NCBI GenBank assembly: GCA_945898095.1
Contig: CAMDHE010000040.1
Coordinates: 1 to 36,614, forward strand
Length of the DNA: 36,614 bases
From: Roseateles toxinivorans
Lineage (GTDB): Bacteria; Pseudomonadota; Gammaproteobacteria; Burkholderiales; Burkholderiaceae_C
Direction of reading: 5' to 3'
The first letter of the stretch is position 1. Each line of letters opens with the position of its first letter. The notes beneath the pieces are model-generated. The model searched no databases. It saw nothing but the letters and a program-made list of their open reading frames with translations, and was not told the origin of the DNA. Below, in pieces: positions 1,592 through 9,580 of the stretch. A program made the translations under genes and the position numbers.

Positions 1592-1906
1592 ATGGTCAAT
1601 GAAATCATCGTGATTGGCGATCTGGAGATGCGCGAAGGCGTTTCAATGGACGAGTACAACAAACTGCTTGGCAAAATGTACAAGATCGTGAGCTCGATGC
1701 CGGGCTTTCAGTCAGTCAAGAAATTCACTGCTGACGACGGTGAAACAGTGAGTATTTATCGGTTTGAGTCAGAACAGGCGCTGGAAGCCTGGCGTACCCA
1801 GCCCGACCATATAGAGGCGATGAAGCGCGGCCATGCCGAGTTCTACGCCTCGGGGCATTTGCAAATTTGCAAGGTGATCCGGGAGGTTGGCTTCAAAAAG
1901 CCTTGA
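1592..1906 (+). CDS. Antibiotic biosynthesis monooxygenase (ABM) domain protein
   Basis: The 104-residue protein fits the dimeric ferredoxin-like ABM fold. It has a beta strand at the start (EIIVIGDLEMREG), a helix with MYKIVSSMPGFQSVKKF, a strand containing SIYRFESEQALEAWRTQPDH, a helix (IEAMKRGHAEFYAS) and a final strand. The phrase W-x-x-x-P-x-H is common in this family. Members include heme- and quinol-acting enzymes and many unassigned proteins; the substrate cannot be told here. An AGGAG ribosome site lies about 9 bases before the ATG. The gene converges on the hydrogenase with 29 bases between stop codons, and the MITE lies just upstream. Confidence 0.8.
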   Translation: MVNEIIVIGDLEMREGVSMDEYNKLLGKMYKIVSSMPGFQSVKKFTADDGETVSIYRFESEQALEAWRTQPDHIEAMKRGHAEFYASGHLQICKVIREVGFKKP

Positions 1907-1935: not shown

Positions 1936-4008
1936 TTACAGAATCTCCCTCACCAGTCTCTTTATAACGGTTCTGGACTGGCTGCCTTCTGGTATTGATT
2001 CCAATTCCAGACTGAACCTGCACCGCTCACCCGCGCTGGTTATGACCATCAGACTTTCAATATCAGCAGCGGCTTCCATCCGATGTCGTTCATATCGCGG
2101 CCCATACTTGCGCGGCGGCAAGTGATTCTTGATCAGCGCTTCAACAGCTGCAGCGCCCTGGACATCGCCAAAAGGTGAGGCGGTTGACCAGGTTCCATCC
2201 GGATGAAATAGCCTGGCCGCGCCAGCAGCATCGCGTCTGTCGACACAGTCAAGAAACCGCATCAAAAGCAAGCGCTTGGAATTTCTTGCCGCGTAGCTTG
2301 TATGCAGCAGCGCCTGTGCGTGAGCAGAATGAGGCTCAACCAATTCTGTCGCATACAGCTTTTGAAGCTCCTGATTTTCATACGAACGACGTCGCGGCGC
2401 TATTTTGTCGATTGCATAAATTGCCTGCGCGCGCTTCTCCAGGATCAGCGGGTCCATCGACTTGGGTTCGCCACCTCCACCCAGACAACCGCCCACACAG
2501 GCCATCACCTCAATCGCCACATAATCATCGCGCCAAGTTTCTGTTTGCAGCATATATTGGGCTGCTGCAATACCATTGCAGACGGCGACCTTGCCGACGC
2601 CGGCGATCTCGGTTGATTTAACGCCCTGACTCACGCCGCGTAACTGATGCCATTCCAAGGGCAGCGAGTTTTCCAGACCGACGAAATGGCTTGCGGTTCG
2701 CGCCACCGCTTCCATAACCCCACCCGATGCGCCGAAAATCTGTCCGGCGCCGGTGCTTTCACCCAGCGGGTTGTCAAATTCACCATTTTCCGACAAGGCA
2801 TCAAAGGCAATACCGCGCGCCCTGATCATTCTGGCCAGTTCGCGCGTCGTGAGTACATGGTCTATATCACCCGATAAACCAGGCCGCATGGCCTCATCTT
2901 TCTTGGCGGTACAGGGCATCACGCTGACCACATAAAGCTCTTGCTTGCCCTCGGCGAAATCGGGCCCAAGCGTAGCTGCAAACGGACCCCGTTTGGCGAT
3001 TGCGCCATGCATTTGCTGTGGTGATTTTGCAGTACTCAGGTGGGGCAGAAGATCAGGTCGGTTGATCTCGACCCAGTTCACCCATCCCGGACAGCAGGAG
3101 GTAAAAAGCGGCAGCTTCTTCTGACTCCTCAGACGCACCACAAACTCTGACGCTTCCTCCATGACGGTCAGATCTGCAGCAAAATTGGTATCGAAGACAT
3201 AATCAAAACCCAGCTGTCTCAGGGCATTGATCATTCTGCCCGTACTCACCGTACCCGGTTTCATTCCAAACTCTTCACTGATCGCAACCCTTGTTGCGGG
3301 CGCCACCTGGACGGCAGAGATACGCCGGCGTGAATCGAGGATATTCAATACATCATGCCAATGGGGCGCCTCGATCAAGGCACCCACCGGGCAGACCAAG
3401 GTGCATTGCCCGCAGGAGATGCATTTGGTGTCAGCCAGGGATTGATCAAAAACATTGACGGGCAAACGCTCGGACCCCCTCTCGGCAAATCCTATAATAT
3501 ATTGTTGTTGTCCCGCCTGACCGCAGGCTTCAGCGCACAATCCGCATTCAACGCATTTTGAAAGATCCCTCCAGATACTCGGTGAAGTGTGGTCAGTCAG
3601 CCGATGTTCCGGATGCTCTGTGGATCCTCTCGGCAGGTATTCCCAACGGTCCTCCAATTGATTTTCCCGCACAATATTTTGCAGTTTGCAAGCCCCGTTG
3701 ACTTCGCATTGCATGCATTCTTTGGGGTGGCGGGCCAACAGCCATTCTGCATCTGCCTTGCGAAATTCCTGCAGATCCCTGGAATCGGTTTCTACAATAT
3801 CACCTGATTTCGCCTTGGTGACGCAAGCCGGTTGTGCTCGGGCTTCGCCTTCGACATCAACAAGGCACATCCGGCATACGGCATGGGAAGGCAAGCGCGG
3901 GTAATAGCACAGCGTGGGGATATATACACCTGCTTCCCTCGCAGCATCGAGAATCGTCGCGCCATCAGGCACTTCGACAGGTCTGCCGTTCACGCTAAGG
4001 TTGATCAT
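1936..4008 (-). CDS. [FeFe]-hydrogenase with four accessory FeS clusters and an NTF2/SnoaL-like C-terminal domain
   Basis: [FeFe]-hydrogenases interconvert H2 and protons plus electrons. Numbering from the ATG at 4008 (690 aa), the order is as follows. First a plant-ferredoxin-like 2Fe-2S domain (C34, C45, C48, C62), then a His-ligated 4Fe-4S cluster (H94, C98, C101, C107), then a two-4Fe-4S ferredoxin (C152-C162, C196-C206). The H-cluster motifs TSCCPGW (303-309), MPCTAKKDE (364-372) and EVMACVGGCLGGGGEP (500-515) follow. The proton-relay Cys is present, as in clostridial CpI. The usual small-subunit-like tail ends with SAHAQALLHTSY. About 115 further residues then resemble a SnoaL/NTF2-like domain (MRFLDCVDRRDAAGAARLF). 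An in-frame TTG at 4023 is a weaker start. No maturation genes are in the window. G+C is visibly lower than in flanking housekeeping genes. Confidence 0.93.
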   Translation of the reverse strand: MINLSVNGRPVEVPDGATILDAAREAGVYIPTLCYYPRLPSHAVCRMCLVDVEGEARAQPACVTKAKSGDIVETDSRDLQEFRKADAEWLLARHPKECMQCEVNGACKLQNIVRENQLEDRWEYLPRGSTEHPEHRLTDHTSPSIWRDLSKCVECGLCAEACGQAGQQQYIIGFAERGSERLPVNVFDQSLADTKCISCGQCTLVCPVGALIEAPHWHDVLNILDSRRRISAVQVAPATRVAISEEFGMKPGTVSTGRMINALRQLGFDYVFDTNFAADLTVMEEASEFVVRLRSQKKLPLFTSCCPGWVNWVEINRPDLLPHLSTAKSPQQMHGAIAKRGPFAATLGPDFAEGKQELYVVSVMPCTAKKDEAMRPGLSGDIDHVLTTRELARMIRARGIAFDALSENGEFDNPLGESTGAGQIFGASGGVMEAVARTASHFVGLENSLPLEWHQLRGVSQGVKSTEIAGVGKVAVCNGIAAAQYMLQTETWRDDYVAIEVMACVGGCLGGGGEPKSMDPLILEKRAQAIYAIDKIAPRRRSYENQELQKLYATELVEPHSAHAQALLHTSYAARNSKRLLLMRFLDCVDRRDAAGAARLFHPDGTWSTASPFGDVQGAAAVEALIKNHLPPRKYGPRYERHRMEAAADIESLMVITSAGERCRFSLELESIPEGSQSRTVIKRLVREIL

Positions 4009-4366: not shown

Positions 4367-4612
4367 ATGGAAATATTTCAGATTCGTGAGGCCAAGGCTA
4401 GTTTTTCTGCGTTGGTGCTTGCTGCTGAAAAAGGTCGGCCCACGCTCATCAGCCGCCATGGTCAACCCTGCGCAATGATTGTGTCGGTTGCCGATGGCGC
4501 ACGCCTCTATCCGCTGGAAATGCCCAACCTGGCCAACTATTTGTTGGATCTGCCTGAGCCACTAGAGACTGAGCGCGACACCACGCCGCTTCGGGGTGTC
4601 GATTTTGTATAA
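4367..4612 (+). CDS. Phd/YefM-family antitoxin
   Basis: This 81-residue protein begins with the Phd/YefM DNA-binding core: MEIFQIREAKASFSALV, then a helix-rich stretch with AAEKGRPTLISRHGQPCAMI, typical of the family (x-x-A-K-x-x-F-x-x-L and I-x-R-x-G-x-P). Such antitoxins neutralise their toxin through the C-terminal tail and repress their own promoter. The gene overlaps the PIN toxin downstream by 17 bases, a usual toxin-antitoxin arrangement. A sigma-70-like promoter precedes it. Confidence 0.9.
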   Translation: MEIFQIREAKASFSALVLAAEKGRPTLISRHGQPCAMIVSVADGARLYPLEMPNLANYLLDLPEPLETERDTTPLRGVDFV

Positions 4613-5057
4613 CGGTTATCTACTTGACACTACGGTGATCTCGATTCTGGCACCGGGGCGTGGAAACATTGTGCCCACCCCGCTGGGCGAATGGCTGCAA
4701 GTCCATCACAAGGAACTTTTCCTCCCCGCTATTGCGGTGGCGGAAATGGCTCAAGGCATTGGCAAGTTGCGCCGCGCTGGTGGTACGGAGCAGGCCGATC
4801 GCCTTGACCGTTGGCTCGACGGATTGTTGGCCACCTATGCGGATCGCATCTTGCCTTTGGATGCACAGGCCGCCCGGCTCGCGGGTCAAATTTCTGATGC
4901 GGCTATGTCAAAGGGCTGCCATCCAGGTTTTGCCGATGTCGCGATTGCCGCGCTGGCCCAAAACGCTGGCCTGCTCTTGTTGACCAGCAACCTCAAACAC
5001 TTTCAGCCACTCGGCGTGGCCTGCGTGGATCCATTGATGGCATTGCCTTCAGTGTGA
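4596..5057 (+). CDS. PIN-domain toxin, VapC/FitB-like
   Basis: PIN toxins are Mg2+-dependent ribonucleases that usually cut tRNA or rRNA. Acidic active-site residues are readable: the first Asp in YLLDTTVIS, a Glu in AVAEMAQGI, and a later Asp in GFADVAIAALA, followed by the typical LLLLTSNLKHFQPLGV end. At 153 residues, the length suits the FitB/VapC group. The listed start is a GTG that overlaps the antitoxin. The protein pairs with a Phd-type rather than VapB-type antitoxin, a known mixed combination. Confidence 0.9.
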   Translation: MSILYNGYLLDTTVISILAPGRGNIVPTPLGEWLQVHHKELFLPAIAVAEMAQGIGKLRRAGGTEQADRLDRWLDGLLATYADRILPLDAQAARLAGQISDAAMSKGCHPGFADVAIAALAQNAGLLLLTSNLKHFQPLGVACVDPLMALPSV

Positions 5058-5286: not shown

Positions 5287-5664
5287 TCAGGAATTGAAGT
5301 CGGTCGCCTGCAGCACGATGGGCTGGCCATGCGGTGTGCGGTCGGCGGCATGGTCCCAGGCCTGGGCACAACGCGACAGTTCGGCCGCGTCGGTGGCGCC
5401 TTTGGCGGCCACCAGGTCTTCGAGCGCCGCCAGCCAATGCCGGTAGTAGGTGTCGCCCAGGTCAGCATCCCCGGCGGCCTGCGCCGCCGTGATGCGGGCC
5501 GACAGCGCGGCGGCCCATTCGGGCCAGCTGAACAGGCCGCGTTGGTGCAGTTGCAGCGTGATCGCGAAAGCCTGGGCCTGCCAGGGCTCGGCGAACACCG
5601 GGGCGCTGTCGGGGCCGGCGGATTCGCCCGCAGGCAGGCCGGGGCAGATTGAGAAGTCAATCAT
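5287..5664 (-). CDS. Nitrile hydratase accessory (activator) protein
   Basis: The 125-residue protein resembles the N-terminal part of nitrile hydratase beta, as known activator proteins of cobalt nitrile hydratases do. The stretch FAEPWQAQAFAITLQLHQRG followed by LFSWPEWAAALSARI is characteristic, as is a later YYRHWLAALEDLVAAKG. These proteins form a complex with the alpha subunit and help deliver cobalt by subunit swapping. The ATG overlaps the beta-subunit stop (ATGA), so translation is coupled. It is the last gene of the operon; no amidase or cobalt transporter follows. Confidence 0.88.
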   Translation of the reverse strand: MIDFSICPGLPAGESAGPDSAPVFAEPWQAQAFAITLQLHQRGLFSWPEWAAALSARITAAQAAGDADLGDTYYRHWLAALEDLVAAKGATDAAELSRCAQAWDHAADRTPHGQPIVLQATDFNS

Positions 5665-6350
5665 GGCTGACTCCGGCTGACCGTCGGGTCGACGAGCGGA
5701 TCCAACATGCTTTCCCAGGCGTCCAGGCCCACGCGCAAGCTCGGATCAGCGTCCGGGCCCCACAGGTCCTGGCCCTCGAACACCAAACCGTACAGCCATT
5801 GCGGCTGCTCGCCCAGGCCTTGGGCGTTGCTGTCGGCGAACACATGCACGCCATGCACCCGCTCGACGGTGCCGGGCTTGCCGCGGGCATAGGCTGGCAG
5901 CCGGCTGTGGTGGTCTGGCTGCAGCGCCGAGGTGATCACAAGGTCGCCAGTCGCGAAGCGCGCCGGGGCGCTGGGCACTCGCTCGGTGGGCGAGCCCTTG
6001 GCCAGCGCGGCGGCCACCTGCTCGGCCGCCAGCAGCCGCGGCAAGGCCGGCGCCGCTTGCTGCGCATGGCCGGCGGCCAGCTCGTCCTCGCTCACCAACT
6101 CGCGTTCCTCCAGCAGCCGCTGCAGGCCGGCCAGCCAGATGCGGTAGTAGCTCAGCGTGGCGTAGTCAGGCAGGGTCTCGCGCGCGGAGCGACTTTGGTC
6201 GATGTTCCAGGCCCCGGTGGCTCCCATCGCCAGCGTCAGCGCCAAGACCCGCGGCTCCCAGCTGGCGTGCCACAACTCGCCCTCGGCTTCGGGCAGCACA
6301 ATGCCCTCGACTTGGCGACCGCCCAGATCGGCATTGCTGATGTAACTCAT
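5661..6350 (-). CDS. nthB: Nitrile hydratase subunit beta
   Basis: Nitrile hydratase converts nitriles to amides; beta covers the metal site on alpha. The 229-residue protein has the typical beta layout. An N-terminal arm (SYISNADLGG) is followed by a helical part with FH/WE-like ELWHASWEPRVLAL and GAWNIDQSRSARE. Then come SYYRIWLAGLQRLLEE and a C-terminal SH3-like domain from about residue 125 (FATGDLVITSALQ, HSRLPAYARGKPGTVERVHG, WLYGLVFEGQDLWG). Its ATG overlaps the alpha stop in ATGA, and its stop overlaps the accessory gene start the same way. Confidence 0.95.
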   Translation of the reverse strand: MSYISNADLGGRQVEGIVLPEAEGELWHASWEPRVLALTLAMGATGAWNIDQSRSARETLPDYATLSYYRIWLAGLQRLLEERELVSEDELAAGHAQQAAPALPRLLAAEQVAAALAKGSPTERVPSAPARFATGDLVITSALQPDHHSRLPAYARGKPGTVERVHGVHVFADSNAQGLGEQPQWLYGLVFEGQDLWGPDADPSLRVGLDAWESMLDPLVDPTVSRSQP

Positions 6351-7015
6351 GCCAAGGGCCTCGCCATCTCATCCTGCGGCGCCGGCGAGCGGGCCAGGCC
6401 AGTGCCTATCATCGAGTCGCGGCTGACCAACTCGGCCAGCGCGGCTTCGTCCAGGTTCTCACTGCCGGGCGGGCGTTGCGGGATCACCAGGTAGCGCACC
6501 TCGGCGGTCGAATCCCAGACCCTGATGCCCATGCCCTTAGGCAGCGTGACGCCAAAATCAGCCAATACGCCGCGCGGATCGCGCACCGCCCTTGCGCGGT
6601 AAGGTGCGCTCTTGTACCAGGTGGGCGGCAGCCCCAGCACCGGCCAGGGGTAGCAGCTGCACAAGGTGCAGACCACCAGGTTGTGCTGCTCAGGCGTGTT
6701 GACCACCGCCACCATATGTTCGCCCTGACGGCCGGTATAGCCCAGCGAAGCGATGGCCGCCGTGGCGTCGCGCAACAGCCACTCCCTGAAATCAGCGTCG
6801 GCCCAGGCCCGGGCCACCACCCTTGCGCCGTTGCGCGGGCCGATGCGGGTCTGGTAGGTGTCGATCAACACATCAAGCGCGGCCGGGTCGATATAGCCCT
6901 TCTCGGTCAGCACGGTCTCGAGTGCACGCACGCGCAAGTCCATCTCGCCGAGCTCGCTGTGGTCGTCAGCATGGTCATGGTCGACGTGCCCATGGTGGGA
7001 ATGATCTTTAGTCAT
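6347..7015 (-). CDS. nthA: Nitrile hydratase subunit alpha, cobalt type
   Basis: The metal-binding motif VCTLCSCYPWP is at residues 115-125 (C116, C119, C121). The CTLCSC form, with Thr, is the cobalt-type signature; iron enzymes carry CSLCSC. Two of these Cys are normally oxidised to sulfinic and sulfenic acids. Also typical are GPRNGARVVARAW, LGLPPTWYKSAPYRAR, DPRGVLADFG and the end SRDSMIGTGL. I chose the ATG at 7015, giving 222 aa. The N-terminus is His-rich (HSHHGHVDHDHADDH), possibly a cobalt-handling tail. An upstream in-frame start near 7090 would add 25 residues without family resemblance. Confidence 0.95.
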   Translation of the reverse strand: MTKDHSHHGHVDHDHADDHSELGEMDLRVRALETVLTEKGYIDPAALDVLIDTYQTRIGPRNGARVVARAWADADFREWLLRDATAAIASLGYTGRQGEHMVAVVNTPEQHNLVVCTLCSCYPWPVLGLPPTWYKSAPYRARAVRDPRGVLADFGVTLPKGMGIRVWDSTAEVRYLVIPQRPPGSENLDEAALAELVSRDSMIGTGLARSPAPQDEMARPLA

Positions 7016-7208
7016 GGCAGCACTTTCAGGATTGGCCCATCCATGATGACGGACGGGCAGTTCAAGGCCAAGTATTGCACCTCGAAGCAACTCTTGCCCC
7101 GCAACATCGTAGATGCGGGCGATGGACGCCCACTATGGGCTTCGACCTCGCTGGCGCACAAAACATGCGGCAGGTCGGCTTGGATTGACCAATCCCTTCC
7201 AACGCCGA

Positions 7209-7826: not shown

Positions 7827-8020
7827 CGAATTTACCTTTCGTTGTTTCGCGGTTGGTCAGGGTCGGGGTCGGGACGCGCGAGTATTGCACTGCGACCAGC
7901 CTAAGACGATTCAAGACTTTTAAGGTATTGGTGGCGGACGGTTGACTGTCTAAACCGCAAATTTCTGAGCCAAATAGCAATGGAGAGTAATGCTGCGGAC
8001 TGGCGGGGGCTCCGAAATTT

Positions 8021-9580
8021 TCAACTTGCGCTCGTACTGGAATGCGTCTCCAACCGGCGTTGCCCGAGCGCGGTCAGGCGGTATCGCTGGCTGCGGCTGT
8101 TAGGCTTGTCAGGCCGGGTCATTTCAATCAGGCCACCTTCCAGCGTCGGCAACAGATAGGCCTTGCGAAAATGTGGCGTGTGCTTCAAGCCCAATGCGTC
8201 TTGCAGCGCACTGCGAGTGTGCTCGCCTTGTGCTGCCGCTACCAGTAGCCGCATGACTTCCCCTGTGACTTGGTCGGTGACTTGGTCGGTGACTTGGTCG
8301 GTGGTCGAAATTGCCGCCCGTGTCCGCGGATGATTGGGCAATCGGATTACAAACGAAAGTCGGTCGTCATCCGTTTCAAACAGCGGCGAAGGCGAGCCGT
8401 TGGCGGTCATCACCTTGAGGATTTTCGGGATGCCCGTCGAGCGTCCTTCCGTCAGGTCAAGCTCCTTCAGGAACTCCCCAATCCGCCGATTGCGGTATCG
8501 ACGGCTAACGGCGCGCCCAGCCTGAAAGTCCGCCAGCCGGATCGACCGGTCCGGACCGGGGAAGCTCAAGATGACCAAATCTTCGTTGCTGATGCGCACC
8601 TCAATAGGCTCGCGCTCTTCATATGACCGGTGGTAGACCGCATTGGCCAAGGCCTCCTCGATGGCTGCGTAGGGGAAGTTCCAGACCCGCGTGGCCTCGG
8701 CGCGATCCGGGTGCTTGATGACCGTCTCGCGCAGGTAGTTGCGCTGGATGTAATTCAAAGCCTCGCGCGTCATCCGCGCCAGAGGACCCTTGAAGATTTT
8801 TTCCTCGAAGCGATCACCGCCAGCACCTTCAGGGAACCAGACCACATCGATCTGCACGCCAGGGAAAAATCGCTCCGGCGTGTCATTGAAGAACAGCAAG
8901 CCCACATTCTTGGGCCAAGGTGATTCGGTGGGCCCGCCCACCAAGTTTATCTGCCGCGCCAAAGCCTCGACCGACAGCCCCGACGCATCAGCTGCCAGCG
9001 CACTACCCACCTCCTGCAAAAAGGCCTGCATCAGCGGTTTGGAAAGATCATCAATCCGCGCCGACTGGTTGAAGCGGTCGTCGAACGGCACCTTGGCAGC
9101 CAAGCTCAACAACTCCTGTTCGGTGTCGCCCTTTGCCTCGACCGTACTGCTGTATCGCCGGATGTAGTAATGCCAAGTCTTCTTCTTGGCTGTGACAGCT
9201 TCGGGGGCTTTGTAGGGACGGTTCTGCCCGCCCGGCGCCCACAGCACGAGCAGCTTATGCCCCTCAAACTCCTCAACGCTCAGTAGCGGGAAATACGGCG
9301 GCTGGATCAACTGGCAATACGCCAGTAGTTCGCGCTGAATTTTGTCCAACTGGTTGTCCGGCAAACCCGCTGGCGGAAATACGGGCTGGCCATTGGCATC
9401 GCAATCCTGCCCGATCACCACGTAACCGCCGCCGAGGTTTTCAAAGTCGTTGGCATAGGCGCACAGGGTGCGGATAATCGCGTCCGGGTTCCACCCGGTC
9501 TTGTACTCGATGCGTTCGCCTTCGACCGTGCGCTGGCGAAGCAGGTCGGTGAGGTTGATGGGGAGCTTGCTCATATTCAT
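8021..9580 (-). CDS. Schlafen AlbA_2-domain ATP-binding protein / putative transcriptional regulator
   Basis: With the ATG at 9580 the protein has 519 residues, and GGAAG sits about 7 bases upstream. The N-terminal AlbA_2 domain shows ERIEYKTGWNPDAIIRTLCA and NLGGGYVVIGQD. The middle and C-terminal parts match the GHKL-like ATPase of COG2865 proteins: IEEALANAVYHRSYEEREPI, then GRSTGIPKIL and DRLSFVIRLP. After a TDQV-repeat linker (about 427-438) comes a winged-helix-like tail (TRSALQDALGLKHTPHFRKA). Such proteins are common in accessory and defence-rich loci, but their activity is mostly uncharacterised. It stands alone beside tRNA-Arg. Confidence 0.88.
   Translation of the reverse strand: MNMSKLPINLTDLLRQRTVEGERIEYKTGWNPDAIIRTLCAYANDFENLGGGYVVIGQDCDANGQPVFPPAGLPDNQLDKIQRELLAYCQLIQPPYFPLLSVEEFEGHKLLVLWAPGGQNRPYKAPEAVTAKKKTWHYYIRRYSSTVEAKGDTEQELLSLAAKVPFDDRFNQSARIDDLSKPLMQAFLQEVGSALAADASGLSVEALARQINLVGGPTESPWPKNVGLLFFNDTPERFFPGVQIDVVWFPEGAGGDRFEEKIFKGPLARMTREALNYIQRNYLRETVIKHPDRAEATRVWNFPYAAIEEALANAVYHRSYEEREPIEVRISNEDLVILSFPGPDRSIRLADFQAGRAVSRRYRNRRIGEFLKELDLTEGRSTGIPKILKVMTANGSPSPLFETDDDRLSFVIRLPNHPRTRAAISTTDQVTDQVTDQVTGEVMRLLVAAAQGEHTRSALQDALGLKHTPHFRKAYLLPTLEGGLIEMTRPDKPNSRSQRYRLTALGQRRLETHSSTSAS
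8267..8302 (-). repeat. Three exact 12-bp tandem repeats coding TDQV
   Basis: GACTTGGTCGGT is repeated three times without a mismatch. On the coding (minus) strand it gives three TDQV units in the linker between the ATPase-like domain and the C-terminal winged helix. Gain or loss of units would keep the frame and change linker length. Confidence 0.9.

Follow-up and report, generated by a model that had tools for sequence, protein, structure and literature searches.

The window, by which we mean the whole 36,614-nucleotide stretch of Roseateles toxinivorans DNA that was analyzed, carries a [FeFe]-hydrogenase-like gene whose ORF is intact and runs on the minus strand from an ATG at 4008 to a stop codon at 1936-1938 (Table 1). 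The gene is located between a convergent ABM-domain gene and a Phd/PIN pair. In a separate MAG (L014), the ABM and ApaG neighbors are kept; hence, the gene belongs to the lineage. A promoter scan gave no promoter-like sites and five terminator-like sites, where 3.4 of the latter were expected. Elsewhere in the window (5661-7090, minus strand) are genes for the beta and alpha subunits of a nitrile hydratase, and the alpha subunit contains a CTLCSC motif of the cobalt type.

Table 1. Features of the hydrogenase-like gene, its product, and its immediate neighbors in the window.
Feature	Residues	Position	Strand	Basis or remark
Tailed [FeFe]-hydrogenase-like gene		1936..4008	-	690 aa + stop codon
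N-terminal 2Fe-2S domain (Fer2_4)	1-76	3781..4008	-	Pfam; cluster cysteines invariant in 37/37
His-Cys3 4Fe-4S domain (NADH-G_4Fe-4S_3)	83-119	3652..3762	-	Pfam; H94, C98, C101, C107 invariant in 37/37
Two ferredoxin-type 4Fe-4S clusters	151-211	3376..3558	-	Pfam; eight cysteines invariant in 37/37
H-cluster domain (Fe_hyd_lg_C)	232-512	2473..3315	-	Pfam; ligands and proton-path residues invariant in 37/37
L1 motif TSCCPGW	303-309	3082..3102	-	Sequence and alignment to CpI
L2 motif MPCTAKKDE	364-372	2893..2919	-	Sequence and alignment to CpI
L3 motif EVMACVGGCLGGGGEP	500-515	2464..2511	-	Sequence and alignment to CpI
Fe_hyd_SSU, the usual hydrogenase C-terminus	522-575	2284..2445	-	Pfam
SnoaL/NTF2-like tail	577-690	1939..2280	-	Pfam and predicted fold
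ABM-domain monooxygenase-like gene		1592-1906	+	Pfam; convergent with the hydrogenase-like gene
Phd/YefM antitoxin and PIN-domain (VapC-like) toxin pair		4367-5057	+	Upstream of the hydrogenase-like gene

The Pfam matches of the protein (Fe_hyd_lg_C, 280.5 bits; Fe_hyd_SSU, 55 bits; and Fer2_4, NADH-G_4Fe-4S_3, and Fer4) are arranged as in M3-type [FeFe]-hydrogenases, i.e., 2Fe-2S, His-Cys3, two 4Fe-4S clusters, H-domain, and SSU. The original prediction, made from the sequence, had listed intact H-cluster motifs and four accessory cluster sites, and both are found: L1, L2, and L3 are all present, as are the ligands of the 2Fe-2S cluster (C34, C45, C48, and C62), the His-Cys3 cluster (H94, C98, C101, and C107), and the two 4Fe-4S clusters (C152, C155, C158, and C162; C196, C199, C202, and C206). 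Alignment to PDB sequences places C305 and C306 of L1 at Cys299 and Cys300 of Clostridium pasteurianum CpI. Among the NCBIfam models, TIGR02512 (group A) is passed with 438 bits relative to a cut-off of 406, while NF040763 (group A6) gives the best score, yet one that is under its cut-off (645 vs 765 bits). An AlphaFold2 model of the whole protein, based on 60 aligned sequences, has a mean pLDDT of 90.6 and a pTM of 0.91, and its best match in a PDB fold search is 8a6t, HydA of a bifurcating hydrogenase.

Two known enzymes are close enough to be instructive. HydA of the electron-bifurcating HydABC complex (8a6t and 7q4v; NF040763 and TIGR02512) has the same domain order over residues 1 to 576 and scores above the TIGR02512 cut-off, and 8a6t_A is the best match of the window protein in both sequence and fold. 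However, the identity is 40%, the window protein falls short of the HydA model NF040763, it carries the NTF2 tail, no maturases were found for it, and a coarse motif test detected no NuoF-type neighbor near the tailed gene. CpI, which we take to be group A1/M3, shares the clusters, the L1 to L3 motifs, and the proton path but is 36 to 37% identical and has no tail. The CpI H-cluster is made by HydEFG. Among PDB sequences there is no tailed [FeFe]-hydrogenase, the hydrogenase matches ending at query residue 578 or earlier, and no Nar1-type homologue at E≤1.

The C-terminal extension was predicted to be a SnoaL/NTF2-like domain, and the HMM search agrees: the isolated last 121 residues score 32.1 bits with Pfam SnoaL_2 (cut-off 27) and 29.6 bits with SnoaL_4 (cut-off 24). 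SnoaL_2 is also matched at E≤0.01 by 35 of the 36 tails scanned, i.e., those of all full-length proteins apart from L014, L015, and L047. A tail-only model built from 36 sequences has a pLDDT of 88.6 and an NTF2-like fold. Judging by title, most of the 50 PDB matches listed for this model are proteins or designs of the NTF2-, SnoaL-, or cystatin-like type; their query-normalized TM-scores are moderate (0.41 to 0.61), and their rmsd values span 4 to 15 Å. These scores support the NTF2-like fold class but not the detail of the fold. The tail is thus related in fold and Pfam family (SnoaL_2/SnoaL_4) to ketosteroid isomerase, LinA, ActVI-ORFA, and the OCP C-terminal domain but differs from them in that the likeness is limited to these TM-scores among the matches listed and in that the catalytic residues of the isomerase are replaced. 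The latter, which we take to be Tyr16 and Asp40, align with Phe585 and Thr609, making isomerase chemistry unlikely. A literature search, most subscription journals being outside its scope, found no published description of a SnoaL/NTF2-tailed [FeFe]-hydrogenase. Together with the PDB sequences, this outcome agrees with the original statement that no standard [FeFe] subgroup is known to have such a tail. Neither PMC3785491 nor PMC7460606 contributed anything decisive.

The gene is present in 44 distinct proteobacterial genomes: 41 from a GTDB contig scan (42 loci; Aquabacterium holds two), the window's own genome (G000), G867, and G523, with G251 and G307, whose gene is identical, counted once. 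In 39 genomes it is full-length, in three it is cut by contig ends (L043, L048, and L050; L048 stops before the tail), and in two it is broken. The other 38 full-length proteins are 69 to 98% identical to the window protein. The fusion claimed for the window is borne out by Pfam, by predicted fold, and by its recurrence. Named hosts include Janthinobacterium, Pseudoduganella, Aquabacterium, Thiomicrorhabdus, Hyphomonas, Alloyangia, Brevundimonas, Gallionella, and Mariprofundus; of the 41 host genomes with names, 31 are MAGs. A maximum-likelihood tree built from 70 rows separates the 39 tailed ones from all others at a branch supported 100/100, and the stem measures 2.37 changes per site, although long branches elsewhere in the tree leave the sister group of the clade unsure. 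Counting the center genome each time, the tailed form occurs in two of 300 sampled genomes of the order (any homologue at E≤1e-60 in 11), in two of 321 of the class, and in two of 337 of the class to which the Hyphomonas genome G325 belongs. The homologues found at this E-value in the three samples fall into two kinds: tailed ones with an identity of 71% or more, and ones without a SnoaL/NTF2 tail that reach no more than 45%. The suspected rarity in Burkholderiales therefore stands, but the enzyme is not an isolated oddity of that order; rather, it belongs to a distinct proteobacterial clade.

This patchy spread, seen in each of the three samples, would be expected of an apo-hydrogenase relic, or of a structural or regulatory protein, whose gene is heading for loss in some lineages. 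The broken copies point in the same direction. One (L054, about 8001-9190) is in Jannaschia seohaensis, and the other (L052, 2-1677), in a Thiomicrospira MAG, is cut at the contig end and has a frame change and a missing stretch. In addition, Aquabacterium sp. CECT 9606 has, about 18 kb from its intact copy, a second copy (L055, 7848-9383) that encodes 511 aa and has lost an internal part without a change of frame. The tail is also less constrained than the H-domain: its dN/dS is 0.17 to 0.28 in six pairs, reaches 1.04 for L044/L047, two very close sequences, and was not computable in one pair. The mean pairwise identity is 63% for the tail and 81% for the H-domain. For the small-subunit part, dN/dS is 0.09 to 0.25 but about 0.7 in two Janthinobacterium pairs (the window/L015 value equals that of window/L014). 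In contrast, the H-domain is under purifying selection, with dN/dS values of 0.035 to 0.20 in eight pairs (dS is saturated in some), and its catalytic residues are invariant across hosts of several proteobacterial classes. The invariant active site and proton path together with this low dN/dS argue against a relic, and we consider this reading, the structural or regulatory role included, quite improbable. The same dN/dS values and the 38 further full-length fusions indicate that the fusion is due to neither chance nor an assembly accident.

The extent of this conservation was determined for 37 full-length proteins out of 41 sequences (L043, L048, L050, and L052 were dropped; L054 and L055 were never in the set, and L066 and L084 were fetched later). 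All 16 accessory-cluster ligands, the four H-cluster cysteines, and, in CpI numbering, C299, E279, E282, R286, S319, S323, K358, M353, F417, and M497 are invariant in 37/37, and Q325 is kept in 36/37. Nine of these ten residues, all but S323, are attributed to the diiron subsite or to the path that serves it with protons, and C299, E279, E282, S319, and R286 are proton-transfer residues. Moreover, 22 tail-less rows share 100 near-invariant positions, and 38 tailed rows are invariant at 82 of them. The clade also has residues of its own, invariant or nearly so within it and rare outside (among them C477, W122, H140, W146, W217, H218, W312, H334, W453, and W492). Such an active site is what a real H-cluster would call for, and it favors a true [FeFe]-hydrogenase.

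However, the enzymes known to build this cluster are missing from the hosts in our searches. No HydE over the profile cut-off, no HydF over the cut-off of 325.55 bits, and no HydG at E≤1e-40 was found in any of the 44 tailed genomes. Weaker GTPase matches at E≤0.001 are present in every genome of one HydF search set; the best (101 bits, a 459-residue frame) is probably Der-like. The HydG limit is loose enough to give a match in the E. coli control, presumably due to ThiH, and a diverged HydG in the tailed genomes is therefore unlikely. Nor can the [NiFe] route generally stand in as a source of Fe(CN)2CO, as HypD was found in only 4/44 genomes. In 29 control genomes with tail-less homologues, the same searches found HydE in 23, HydF in 23, and HydG in 20 (one of the latter as two split pieces under the cut-off). 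Fisher tests of tailed against tail-less genomes, with relatedness ignored, give 2e-11 for HydG and 8e-14 for HydF. Nevertheless, six of the 29 tail-less genomes (G378, G429, G430, G506, G541, and G989) also lack all three matches, and the absence of maturases is therefore not specific to the tailed form. These six are small genomes of 1.0 to 1.6 Mb with tail-less [FeFe]-hydrogenase genes.

Given the share of MAGs among the hosts, maturases might have been missed through incomplete assemblies or might be too diverged for detection. This explanation is nearly refuted: the result is 0/44 for three independent families, isolates and genomes of 97 to 100% completeness (G000, G251, and G867) are among those with no match, and the same searches succeed in most tail-less-homologue genomes and find HydE, HydF, and HydG in the Thermotoga control. 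Collectively, two facts are in tension, i.e., no maker of a CO/CN diiron site was found in most genomes, and all 37 sequences retain this site together with its proton path. With no HydE, HydF, or HydG found in the host genomes, it is not justified to call the protein a working hydrogenase.

The published record bears on this point. According to PMC4744846, Greening et al. placed hypothetical proteins of Thiomicrospira/Hydrogenovibrio in group A1, and these are given as 70 and 68% identical to proteins of Roseibacterium and Wenzhouxiangella. The same paper reports that T. chilensis, T. kuenenii, and T. pelophila, which carry putative [FeFe] genes, did not consume H2 under the conditions tested; the test covered consumption only, and neither a tail nor HydEFG is mentioned in the passages concerned. 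The genes of Thiomicrospira/Hydrogenovibrio, Roseibacterium elongatum, and Wenzhouxiangella marina probably belong to the tailed family, a link made through the intact Thiomicrorhabdus L026 and L031 and the broken Thiomicrospira L052 in that family and through similar identity levels rather than by direct sequence comparison. Maturase-less [FeFe] genes are already mentioned in print, while a description of the tail did not appear in our search. In PMC4967309, Entamoeba invadens is listed with [FeFe]-hydrogenases and without HydE, HydF, and HydG, and for the maturase-less case of Rhodospirillum rubrum, earlier work is cited as having held the enzyme to be inactive or to have a different role.

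The gene neighborhoods give a partial indication of function. The comparison of loci proposed in the original prediction revealed no neighbor common to the tailed loci in general and no general operon; the largest neighbor cluster, a loose short-chain dehydrogenase group at 9/44 loci (one genome counted twice, L003 and L021), is probably not one orthologue. Two loci adjoin a 2-oxoacid:ferredoxin oxidoreductase pair and a pyridine-nucleotide/Fe-S protein, identified by Pfam at L025 and by sequence likeness at L032, and a PFOR is nearby at L049. These neighbors are suggestive, as ferredoxin-dependent oxidoreductases would fit H2 chemistry. Across genomes, PFOR (TIGR02176) occurs in 7/44 tailed and 2/9 tail-less, which is uninformative about a fermentative context. 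No NuoF-type motif is present in 46 stretches (one a duplicate region; 682 kb) around the tailed gene, although the test is coarse, the motif used being found in only 4/31 control loci of ~4.7 kb. An FNR-box with up to two mismatches is found in 10/37 upstream regions, relative to 4.3 expected from mononucleotide shuffles (L043, L050, L051, and L052, where no start was found, were dropped), which is at most suggestive of FNR regulation. Carriage on plasmids was rejected, since none of 284 matching PLSDB records reaches 60% identity.

Taken together, we rank first the reading that the protein is a hydrogenase-fold Fe-S oxidoreductase under selection that works without a diiron cofactor made by HydEFG, to which we assign a probability of roughly 0.45. 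The counts of HydE, HydF, HydG, and HypD, set against tail-less controls that mostly have maturases, speak for it, as do the constraint on the H-domain, the probable Thiomicrospira relatives that consumed no H2, and the outcome of the coarse NuoF test. Against it stand the invariant diiron-subsite and proton-path residues, the neighbors at L025, L032, and L049, the six tail-less genomes without maturases, and the restriction of the published H2 test to consumption. The second-ranked reading, a true [FeFe]-hydrogenase whose H-cluster is built by an unknown HydEFG-independent pathway, with the tail possibly aiding assembly or protecting the site, draws on these same residues and neighbors, on the 82 shared invariant positions, and on the Entamoeba invadens precedent. 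We regard it as rather unlikely because no known source of CO/CN ligands was found, because Thiomicrospira species said to carry such genes consumed no H2, and because several host genera are aerobes. In its broadest form, a whole proteobacterial clade of genuine NTF2-extended [FeFe]-hydrogenases would make or receive an H-cluster-type cofactor without HydE, HydF, and HydG and mostly without HypD; such a second route to an organometallic or H-cluster-like site, operating partly in aerobes, is unlikely.

For the favored Fe-S oxidoreductase, a partner whose gene lies elsewhere would pass electrons to the NuoG-like clusters at the N-terminus, and these electrons, judging from the conserved ligands, would reach the [4Fe-4S] part of the H-site. 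The pocket beside this cluster has an intact cysteine/glutamate/serine proton relay and a lysine. Here, a small substrate, but not H2, would be reduced or oxidized with coupled proton transfer, or another small cofactor may be housed. Judging from the pTM of the model, the NTF2-like domain probably has a fixed place in the packing of the whole protein, and it would bind either a partner or a small ligand. The original prediction had proposed that the tail may sense or bind a small molecule, protect from O2, or dock a partner.

In hydrogenase surveys, such genes are classed as [FeFe]-hydrogenases on the basis of sequence, as PMC4744846 reports for Thiomicrospira. Should the clade be unable to form an H-cluster, these Proteobacteria are being credited with too much H2 metabolism; otherwise, an unknown maturation pathway exists. 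Isolate genomes are available within the clade for Janthinobacterium, Thiomicrorhabdus, and Hyphomonas, among its genera, and the old puzzle of maturase-less [FeFe]-hydrogenases, as in Entamoeba and Rhodospirillum rubrum, is thereby made directly testable.

Other C-terminal extensions were also seen. At L013, a [FeFe]-hydrogenase-like frame, in which the L2 pattern used is unmatched, runs by eye into a rubredoxin/rubrerythrin-like C-terminus. In the class of G325, homologues L069, L070, and L075 have a different C-terminal extension, unassigned to a family, in frames of 662 to 663 aa.
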